A DNA stretch of 56,705 bases from a virus: IMG/VR virus record IMGVR_UViG_3300035162_003548, positions 1 to 56,705 of that record, one strand, 5' to 3'. This document shows positions 4,572 to 7,326 of this stretch, piece by piece; within the stretch, counting starts at the first letter, position 1, and each line of letters begins with the position of its first letter. The notes under the pieces were generated by a model. That model saw only the letters and a program-made list of their open reading frames with translations. It was not told the DNA's origin and searched no databases. The position numbers and the translations under genes were made by a program.

Positions 4572-5090
4572 TTAATAACGTAATTTGCTGTGTACAGCAT
4601 CTTTGATTTGATTATAGTCCGAATAGGATCCACCGTCAACCCCGTCCTCACTGAAAACTTCACTGAATCCAGACCTTTCAAGAATTTTATTTTTAATTTC
4701 TAACTGTCTTTTCTCTCGCTGAATACGACGCAGAAAAGCATAATGAATAATCTGAGTGAAATACGCAAAGGGATTCTGGGATTTCTCTGTGTCAAAGTTA
4801 TGTATATACTGAACGCAGTTCTCAATTCCGTCAGAGATCATGTCCTCTTTGAACATATAGTTGACGAAATTTGGTTTGAATGATAGATGATTTGCAATCT
4901 TTAGAAAGCACTCACCAATATAACGTGGAATAGGGGGTTTAGTATCCCAACGTGATCCTCTATCCTTTTTAGTCGGCTCTCTTCCAAATTTTTTAATAAA
5001 TGTAATTTCAACTTCACTTTGATAATATGTAAGTGCTGCTAAAAATTCTTTATTATTAACGTAATGCTCTGATCTTTTACGTTTTGCCAT
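4572..5090 (-). CDS. 55: Late-transcription sigma factor gp55
   Basis: A 172-residue T4 gp55-type sigma factor that directs host RNA polymerase to TATAAATA late promoters together with gp33 and the sliding clamp gp45 (neither lies in this window). The sequence holds the family's helical core: a segment IGECFLKIANHLSFKPNF, then DMISDGIENCVQYIHNFD, and NPFAYFTQIIHYAFLRRIQREK, which is the sigma region 2-like part that binds polymerase and opens the promoter. Start: the open frame reaches 5108, but the ATG at 5090 follows GGGAACT and yields the usual MAKRKR N-terminus, so it is preferred. A sigma70-like promoter lies directly upstream at 5137-5165, which fits early expression of the late regulator. 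Confidence 0.93.
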   Translation of the reverse strand: MAKRKRSEHYVNNKEFLAALTYYQSEVEITFIKKFGREPTKKDRGSRWDTKPPIPRYIGECFLKIANHLSFKPNFVNYMFKEDMISDGIENCVQYIHNFDTEKSQNPFAYFTQIIHYAFLRRIQREKRQLEIKNKILERSGFSEVFSEDGVDGGSYSDYNQIKDAVHSKLRY

Positions 5091-5136
5091 AGTTCCCGAT
5101 TTAATCATAAAAAAATATTATCACTATTATGTAGAT

Positions 5137-5165
5137 AGTATAACATTTCCAATCTATAATAGCAA
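5137..5165 (-). promoter_or_regulatory. Sigma70-type extended -10 promoter for gp55
   Basis: Minus strand: TTGCTA (5165-5160), 17 bp spacer, TATACT (5142-5137), preceded by TGT, giving an extended -10 (TGnTATACT). It faces gp55, 47 bp ahead of its ATG, and its -35 box is 2 bp from the -35 box of an opposite promoter. Confidence 0.6.
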
Positions 5166-5167
5166 GC

Positions 5168-5196
5168 TTGACACACTATCAAATATTCACTATAAT
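5168..5196 (+). promoter_or_regulatory. Perfect sigma70 consensus promoter on the plus strand
   Basis: Plus strand TTGACA (5168-5173), exactly 17 bp, then TATAAT (5191-5196): all twelve consensus bases at the best spacing. No plus-strand gene follows; transcription would start near 5203 and run antisense through the 130-residue ORF and uvsW. Confidence 0.62.
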
Positions 5197-5224
5197 AACT
5201 CTGTTAGGGTTGATAAGGATTGTA

Positions 5225-5617
5225 TTAGCTCTTTTTGTAGAGCTTCTCTAAAATGTCTTTAGCATCATTAACTGTAGATATATACCCCATCTCTCTTGTT
5301 ATTTTTGGTTGACCTGTTTTTTCTCTATCGGAATCTTGTACAAATTGTTGATATATTGATATCATTTCAAAATCAGAGGATTCTGATAGGGTCAGTACAT
5401 CATCTAAATTTATAATAAACAAATCTTCTTTGGTTGTTTTTAACCATGGTTCTACTTTATATCCAGCTAAACCAGTTCTTGTCTTTACTTCAACAATAGT
5501 AATTGGATTAGAAATAAGAAGCATAGTTCTATTTTCTTCTTCAGAGGCTGCTACTTTAGCATAGATCTCTTCTCCAGATTTAAATTTAATCGTTGCGTAG
5601 AAATCGTCTTCAATCAT
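5225..5617 (-). CDS. Conserved cyanophage protein, possibly Sm-like fold
   Basis: A 130-residue protein of unknown function, always (from memory) next to uvsW in T4-like cyanophages. The first 60 residues read as alternating strands with a 'FKSGEEIYAKV' turn and 'TMLLISNPITIVEV', a pattern reminiscent of Sm/LSm small beta barrels; this is only inferred from the pattern. The second half is helical and ends with KDILEKLYKK. Its ATG overlaps the uvsW stop as ATGA. A 6 bp hairpin (5228-5245, AGCTCT/AGAGCT) covers the stop codon but has no following U run. A plus-strand promoter just downstream would transcribe it in antisense. Confidence 0.7.
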   Translation of the reverse strand: MIEDDFYATIKFKSGEEIYAKVAASEEENRTMLLISNPITIVEVKTRTGLAGYKVEPWLKTTKEDLFIINLDDVLTLSESSDFEMISIYQQFVQDSDREKTGQPKITREMGYISTVNDAKDILEKLYKKS

Positions 5618-7089
5618 ACTTTTAATTGGATAGTTATTATCTCATAGTTAAAATTTTCTTCGTTATATATTTTAATTCTTTCAATGAGATGGTTTAGGGT
5701 GTAATTTCGTCTTGACTTATGTGTACAATCATCAGAGATGTCATAGAGGATTGCCTTAGTTTTATCTTTTCCTTTTCTAAGAACTCTTCCAATAGATTGT
5801 AGATTTCTTACTCTTGATTTTGATGGAGATGCAAAGATAACGTTATGAAGATTTTTAATATTAATACCAGTAGAAAAAGTTCCATAAGAGGCAACGATAA
5901 TTGCATCATTTTCTCGTTCAGTTATTTCTCTGACTAACTCTCTTTCCTCAGCATCTACTCCTCCGTGAATAAAAAATGCTTTTCTATTAGCCTCTTTGTT
6001 AGTATTTATCTTTTCAAAGAGTATGGCACCATGAGATTCAACTCTTTGAAACAGCACAAGAGTATTTCCTTTTAAATCAAGAGTTAAATTTTTTATAAAA
6101 TTATTTCTCTTTTCATGAGAAATTAAATACTGAATTTCATCTTCATATGTTTCAAATATTTGTGGATTGTGTTTGAGGATTAAACACTGAATATCAAGTT
6201 GAGATAGATGTCCTTGCCTCATCAACTCATCAGTTTTAGTGACTTTATATGATGGACCAAATAAACCTTCTAACACCCACTTATGAGTTTGTGTACCATC
6301 CAATGTTCCAGTAAATCCAAATCTATATTTTGCATGATGCAATTTTGTCATTATAGATATTAAAGATTTACTTTTAAAAAGATGAGCTTCGTCTCCAATT
6401 ATAACATTAAATTCTTCAAAGAATTTTCTATCTAGTTTATAAACTGATTGCCATGTTGTAATTGTTACTGGAGCATCATTACTCTTTTCTCTACCCGAAT
6501 AGATACGGTGGCAATATGAATCAGCATTCCAACCATAATCTTGAAAGTCCTTATACATCTGCTCTACAAGAGATGTCGTTGGAACAACTAGCAAGATTTT
6601 TTGACCTTTGTCAACGTAATATCTTACAAGAGAATAAATCATCAGAGATTTGCCGCTTGCAGTGGGTGATATCAATAGTTTTCTATTGTGTCTTAAAGCA
6701 TCGTATACTCCCTCAATCTGATACTTCCTTGGAGAATGAGAGCATATAGATTTCATATAATCTTTAACACCTTCATATGAAATTCCATTATTAACCTCAA
6801 ATGGAATTCCATAGAATTTATTATCTTCAAACTTATAACTATATCCGTAATTTTCACAGAACTGAACAATCTTATCTAAAAGACCAACATAGATCTGTTT
6901 GGACCGCATATCGTAAAGGTGAATCTCTCCGTTCCAGTTCCTTCCACGATACTGTGGCATAAATTTTGCATTCGGAACCTCAAACTTAAAGTGATCTCTA
7001 AGTTCGTACTCTATATGAGGTTCTGTATTGATCTTTAAAAATACTTCGTTTGATTTGGATATAACAAGATTGGCTGTCGTATCAATCAC
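5614..7089 (-). CDS. uvsW: UvsW DNA/RNA helicase
   Basis: A 491-residue superfamily 2 helicase. T4 UvsW unwinds branched recombination intermediates and R-loops, switching the phage from origin-driven to recombination-driven replication. Walker A SPTASGKS lies near residues 140 to 147, DEAH (GDEAH) near 231 to 235, motif III-like GFTGTLDG after it, and the C-terminal helicase motifs VASYGTFSTGINIKNL and QSIGRVLRKGKDK are complete. The N-terminal domain (residues 1 to 110) with YRGRNWNGEIHLYD matches the T4 substrate-binding domain. The start is GTG at 7089 (an overlapping ATG is out of frame); it lies 7 nt after GGAT. Length agrees with T4 (503). Confidence 0.95.
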   Translation of the reverse strand: MIDTTANLVISKSNEVFLKINTEPHIEYELRDHFKFEVPNAKFMPQYRGRNWNGEIHLYDMRSKQIYVGLLDKIVQFCENYGYSYKFEDNKFYGIPFEVNNGISYEGVKDYMKSICSHSPRKYQIEGVYDALRHNRKLLISPTASGKSLMIYSLVRYYVDKGQKILLVVPTTSLVEQMYKDFQDYGWNADSYCHRIYSGREKSNDAPVTITTWQSVYKLDRKFFEEFNVIIGDEAHLFKSKSLISIMTKLHHAKYRFGFTGTLDGTQTHKWVLEGLFGPSYKVTKTDELMRQGHLSQLDIQCLILKHNPQIFETYEDEIQYLISHEKRNNFIKNLTLDLKGNTLVLFQRVESHGAILFEKINTNKEANRKAFFIHGGVDAEERELVREITERENDAIIVASYGTFSTGINIKNLHNVIFASPSKSRVRNLQSIGRVLRKGKDKTKAILYDISDDCTHKSRRNYTLNHLIERIKIYNEENFNYEIITIQLKV

Positions 7090-7110
7090 ATAGATCCATT
7101 CATCTACAAA

Positions 7111-7118
7111 TATTTATT
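7111..7118 (-). promoter_or_regulatory. Late-box-like motif AATAAATA upstream of uvsW
   Basis: Minus-strand AATAAATA differs by one base from the T4 late box TATAAATA. It lies 21 bp ahead of the uvsW start, overlapping the stop of the preceding small ORF. Confidence 0.35.
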
Positions 7119-7326
7119 ACATATTGTCAAACTTATATTCTAATATCATTCTATACAACGAATCTCTCAAGTACCAAAGATGTTGTTGTTCCATTGGAGG
7201 TCTTGAAGGAGATCCTTCCCAAGTTTCAATTCTTTTTAAAACACAGTGATGTAAGAGGTGAATATCCTCTATTGTCAGACTAACTGTGTAGTCAAAATCT
7301 TGACTTGGTTCAAACTCATCACCCAT
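7117..7326 (-). CDS. Small conserved phage protein between uvsY and uvsW
   Basis: A 69-residue protein with no assigned function. It is acidic at the N-terminus (MGDEFEPSQDFDY) and then mostly helical, with the run LTIEDIHLLHHCVLKRIETW and a second helix QHLWYLRDSLYRMILEYKF. The start is set at the ATG at 7326 because it overlaps the uvsY stop as TGATG; the longer frame would begin with TTG. Position between two recombination genes suggests an accessory role in recombination, but nothing in the sequence shows it. Similar small ORFs sit here in cyanophages. Confidence 0.7.
   Translation of the reverse strand: MGDEFEPSQDFDYTVSLTIEDIHLLHHCVLKRIETWEGSPSRPPMEQQHLWYLRDSLYRMILEYKFDNM

Follow-up and report, generated by a model that had tools for sequence, protein, structure and literature searches.

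A conserved predicted antisense promoter between gp55 and uvsW in T4-like cyanophages

What could a consensus promoter for the host polymerase be doing on the gene-free strand, back to back with the promoter of the late sigma factor gene? The question is raised by the record IMGVR_UViG_3300035162_003548, a 56.7-kb virus and T4-like cyanomyovirus, whose 56,705 nt were analyzed as one stretch (the window). The genes around the site all lie on the minus strand, as an earlier note on this DNA had said, in the order uvsW, a 130-aa ORF, gp55, gp47 and gp46. The three genes nearest the site are:

4572..5108, minus strand: gp55, the late sigma factor gene (phrog_234, E=1.5e-62)
5225..5617, minus strand: gene for the 130-aa Sm-like protein (phrog_471; PF16243 Sm_like)
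5614..7089, minus strand: uvsW helicase gene (phrog_16, E=1e-117)

Gp55-type late promoters follow the same polarity, with 19 on the minus strand and one on the plus strand (regular-expression counts that include overlapping forms). Two details of annotation concern these genes. Judging from the N-termini of relatives, gp55 probably starts at the ATG at 5090 (MAKRKRSEHYVNN, with a GGGA ribosome site upstream) rather than at 5108. The phrog_471 label 'methylamine utilization', which is widespread in cyanophages, looks wrong; the 130-aa protein instead matches Sm_like in Pfam (40.9 bits, cut-off 29.4).

Two opposed promoters in the window

The gap between gp55 and the Sm-like gene holds two promoters that face away from each other:

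5137..5165, minus strand: gp55 promoter, with -35 box TTGCTA (5165-5160), 17-nt spacer and -10 box TATACT (5142-5137), the latter preceded by an extended TG (extended -10 TGTTATACT)
5168..5196, plus strand: antisense promoter, with -35 box TTGACA (5168-5173), 17-nt spacer and -10 box TATAAT (5191-5196), matching the sigma-70 consensus at 12 of 12 positions

The earlier note had described the plus-strand site as carrying every consensus base, with a -35 box 2 bp from that of gp55, and both statements agree exactly with the sequence. TTGACA and TATAAT about 17 nt apart are what defines a host sigma-70 promoter, and this is the sole 12/12 site within the first 20 kb. Transcription is predicted to start near 5203, about 7 nt past the -10 box, and by its position the promoter does point, as had been proposed, antisense to the Sm-like gene, which would be met first from its 3' end, and to uvsW, which would be met second. 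Weak promoter-like sites in the same 20 kb number 70, against 71.8 expected from shuffled sequence. Thus, a scan match alone means little, and conservation had to decide.

Conservation and layout in relatives

The comparison used 159 IMG/VR loci that encode a relative of either gp55 or the Sm-like protein. From these the intergenic gap between the two genes was excised; removal of near-identical gaps at 85% left 88 representatives. Absence of the plus-strand motif from close relatives had been named beforehand as the observation that would tell against it, and this objection clearly fails. A perfect antisense TTGACA is present in 88/88 representatives, with a -10 box at 16-18 nt and at least 10 of 12 consensus matches (10/12 in 8, 11/12 in 64 and 12/12 in 16, so that 80/88 score 11-12). 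Outside the gap, 529,834 bp of antisense strand at these loci contain no site of at least 11/12 with a perfect -35 box, and 17 sites of at least 10/12. Column information is 2.0 bits at each -35 position and 1.5-2.0 bits at the fixed positions of the -10 box, and most columns of the spacer stay under 1 bit. The promoter is also found in 15 of the 16 isolate phages examined:

Syn9, S-SM2, S-CAM1, S-RIM12, ACG-2014b, ACG-2014d, P-SSM2, P-SSM4
Bellamy, P-TIM68, S-SCSM1, S-SKS1, S-SRM01, SynMITS9220M01, Sf-FR1

The sole exception among the 16 is P-TIM40, whose gap of 46 nt lacks it. The T4-like Sinorhizobium phage phiM19, which shares the gene order, carries TTGACA-16-TATAAT at the equivalent place; in this phage an annotated small ORF of 153 nt lies on the antisense strand behind the promoter (locus L162, 3622-3774).

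The arrangement of the two promoters is more variable than the antisense promoter itself. In 75/88 representatives both promoters use one near-palindromic -35 box, CTTGTCAAG, which is perfect as the antisense -35 and matches 5/6 in the gp55 direction, and the gp55 promoters of relatives read TTGTCA/TTGnCA-17-TATAAT or TATACT. The promoters are interleaved in Syn9, S-RIM12, ACG-2014b and P-SSM4. The other 13/88, including the window, have two boxes, with the antisense TTGACA kept alongside a distinct -35-like box that serves gp55. Separated layouts reach an offset of 43 nt and still keep the antisense promoter together with the conserved element downstream of it (below). As each promoter retains its own -35 box in these 13 layouts, both appear to be selected independently. 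Since layouts range from interleaved to well separated, the exact back-to-back spacing is not a conserved trait; of the back-to-back pair described from the window, the antisense promoter and its start-site element are conserved, whereas the precise geometry is not. The varying distance also means that competition between the promoters cannot be the conserved function in all of these phages, although it is plausible and would be stronger in most relatives, in which the -35 boxes are common or interleaved. The earlier note had suggested such competition as a possible timer of gp55 against uvsW. Its interpretation is partly supported: the antisense direction and the conservation hold up, and a role in timing stays hypothetical.

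Could the antisense promoter be a by-product, in which a palindromic -35 box of gp55 mimics a promoter on the other strand, or a chance match? The common box is indeed nearly palindromic, and weak promoter-like sites are frequent in AT-rich DNA. However, the antisense -10 box and the downstream element are conserved as well, the background holds no comparable site, and TTGACA persists apart from the gp55 box in the separated layouts and is thus conserved in its own right. Conservation brings this explanation close to refutation, with a very small residual probability. The antisense promoter at gp55 in T4-like cyanophages is very probably a selected control element.

A start-site element and a recurring promoter type

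Two features that the earlier note had missed are an element at the predicted start site and the recurrence of promoter and element before other phage genes:

5197..5211, plus strand: start-site element AACTCTGTTAGGGTT, an imperfect dyad directly after the -10 box, with conserved columns and copies elsewhere

This sequence occurs once in the window; variants in relatives include AACCTTTGTGGAGGTT, and the common pattern is AAC-YTGT-GGGTT. The promoter type can be written as TTGACA-17-TAnAAT followed by AACnYTGTnRGGGTT at the start site, and the window site also fits the looser form TTGACA-16/17-TAnnAT, then AAC..TGT..GGTT. Promoter and element recur at 52.7 kb in Syn9, at 13.8 and 49.0 kb in S-RIM12, at 12.5 and 46.8 kb in ACG-2014b and at 43.2 kb in S-SM2; in several isolates, the gp55 copy is the only one found. 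When four whole genomes were scanned for the -10 box and element without requiring a -35 box, every site proved to have a perfect TTGACA at 16-17 nt. A set of 200 matching sites was examined, drawn almost wholly from IMG/VR with a few on bacterial contigs; of these, 110 lie at gp55/Sm-like, 8 at contig edges and 82 elsewhere. Most of these 82 have an ATG a few to several tens of nt downstream in the direction of the promoter. Protein genes behind copies of promoter and element include cpeT and one for a 72-aa protein, in most cases with an ATG 3-56 nt downstream. Recurrence before protein genes marks a distinct cyanophage promoter type. Judged from these sequences, the site on the plus strand is a sigma-70 promoter under selection and belongs to this recurring T4-like cyanophage type; the gp55 copy alone is predicted to read antisense, the other copies pointing into protein genes.

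The gene for the 72-aa protein (SSKAKNRFVNIMQSLHAMEVEQET...NEHWEV; loci L364, L367, L374, L414 and others) is the commonest one behind promoter and element in IMG/VR cyanophages. Two phages also have a conserved non-coding stretch, GTAACACTTAGCGGCA..., downstream of a TTGACA promoter whose spacer is 18 nt (locus L191, about 2200-2300, from KX349326 at 49.2 kb; locus L193, about 2220-2300, from KJ019049 at 47.0 kb); it is possibly a structured RNA.

In 84,980 bacterial and archaeal species genomes, the pattern of promoter plus element has nine matches, two of them on Synechococcus contigs that are possibly phage-derived. A host regulon was rejected on this count, and the near-absence of the pattern from bacteria and archaea makes it look phage-specific. 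Pair counts in the start-site dyad do not exceed those expected under independence, so that a hairpin or leader and a protein-binding site both remain as readings of it. One tentative and rather improbable extension of the latter is that AACnYTGTnRGGGTT marks a small regulon, bound by a phage or host factor, in T4-like cyanophages without MotA/AsiA. The gp55/uvsW antisense promoter would be its one near-invariant member, so that the factor would decide when the late sigma factor sets in and would also keep the R-loop helicase silent.

The predicted antisense RNA and the early-to-late switch

The predicted RNA would run from about 5203 antisense through the Sm-like gene and uvsW. A promoter opposite a gene and pointing across it is the mark of a cis-antisense RNA, and position and direction both agree with this. 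A conventional divergent gene pair was rejected, since the second promoter lacks a conserved downstream ORF (none within 120 nt of the start in relatives). A conserved RNA body was likewise rejected, since synonymous sites at the 3' end of the Sm-like gene show no drop in variability; such lack of constraint is compatible with action in cis and lends it no positive support. Conservation was not found beyond about 25 nt, and no Rfam family reaches the gathering threshold in the window. No terminator was found near the antisense start, and the antisense strand carries few terminator-like sites up to the uvsW start. A terminator-like peak 1.8-2.0 kb downstream was discounted as the uvsW late promoter read backwards together with a hairpin near the uvsW start. 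That late promoter is:

7111..7119, minus strand: gp55-type late promoter TAATAAATA before uvsW, a late motif near the start

Of 66 representatives, 43 have a late motif no more than 60 nt from the uvsW start, compared with 1.4% of random windows. T4 expresses UvsW from a late promoter, and the helicase unwinds origin R-loops (PMC3016281). UvsW appears late in T4 and ends replication from R-loop origins. Cyanomyoviruses are without motA and asiA, and the reading of their early promoters is therefore attributed to host sigma-70 RNA polymerase (PMC2984593). The reading preferred here, to which a probability of about 0.5 is given, is that an early sigma-70 antisense promoter keeps the late Sm-like/uvsW unit silent and also competes with the promoter of gp55. 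Early in infection, unmodified host RNA polymerase would read the antisense promoter, and the resulting cis-antisense RNA would cross the Sm-like gene and uvsW. Either antisense pairing or collision between polymerases would hold off the late unit, and as the polymerase footprints of the antisense and gp55 promoters overlap, the first synthesis of gp55 would also be moderated. Once polymerase had been redirected to late promoters by gp55, the sigma-70 antisense promoter would fade, and uvsW would be expressed from its own late promoter. In cyanophages, the antisense promoter would thus be an extra lock on the timing of UvsW. Counting against this mechanism, P-TIM40 lives without the antisense promoter.

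Other roles for a genuine promoter have to be weighed against this one. Its RNA might have no role at all, with bound or initiating polymerase insulating or tuning the gp55 promoter through competition for occupancy, blocked read-through from the late uvsW unit, or supercoiling. The common or interleaved -35 boxes of most phages and the missing RNA body and ORF would fit such insulation, but separated layouts retain both antisense promoter and element, and the element precedes protein genes elsewhere, which argues for productive initiation; this alternative is possible, though unlikely. Less probable still is a transcript from a replication origin, priming DNA synthesis through an R-loop in the manner of the middle-mode transcripts at T4 oriF/oriG. 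T4 origins lie in late-transcribed regions and their R-loop transcripts are removed by UvsW (PMC3016281), and the antisense promoter stands at the edge of a late region, adjoining uvsW. Against this, the sign of GC skew is unchanged across the locus in four genomes, although skew is only weakly informative in T4-like phages, and the same promoter type also precedes ordinary genes. An equally doubtful candidate is a short small RNA that acts in trans, perhaps with the neighboring Sm-like protein bound to it: the Sm_like domain of that gene product and the conserved 5' end speak for it, and the lack of conservation past about 25 nt, of an Rfam match and of a nearby terminator speaks against it.

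Antisense silencing of the late unit, as preferred here, has partial precedents. In T4, anti-late transcripts are early RNA complementary to late genes, and the antisense promoter, if early, would make RNA of the same kind; here, however, one promoter sits at a fixed conserved locus and is coupled to the promoter of the late sigma factor, whereas uvsW is not adjacent to 55 in T4. Overlapping divergent bacterial promoters with a common -35 or -10 box cannot be occupied by two polymerases at once. Unlike those pairs, the cyanophage pair has one arm antisense over coding genes and no divergent gene, the 153-nt ORF of phiM19 excepted. In S-PM2, another T4-like cyanophage, the CfrI RNA is transcribed antisense to psbA and to a gene for a homing endonuclease (PMC2984593, PMC5931967), and regulation of these opposing genes is its presumed role. 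CfrI lies at psbA, whereas the promoter described here, predicted from sequence, is at the gp55/uvsW junction of nearly all T4-like cyanophages examined, has a defined type and in most shares its -35 box. T4 oriF/oriG resemble the arrangement predicted here in having a host-polymerase transcript near late genes with UvsW as regulator of such transcripts (PMC3016281), but the cyanomyovirus promoter is not of the MotA type, motA being absent, and GC skew gave no origin signature. Cyanophage antisense RNA is already known from CfrI, and a start at the gp55 locus may have been reported before; the study of the Syn9 transcriptome by Doron et al. in 2016 may contain start sites.

The early-to-late switch of T4-like cyanophages without MotA/AsiA has been described as still unclear (PMC2984593), and a conserved antisense promoter of recognizable type at the late sigma gene offers a defined site for testing it. 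Its conservation also suggests that, at this locus at least, antisense transcription is maintained by selection in these abundant ocean viruses rather than being noise.

A minor observation concerns the uvsW start. On the minus strand at 7090-7119, a hairpin (GTAGAT-loop-ATCTAT) directly follows the late promoter and abuts the GTG start codon of uvsW. A similar hairpin lies over the uvsW start in relatives, as though translation were being blocked on transcripts that read through from upstream, a block that is known for some T4 late genes.
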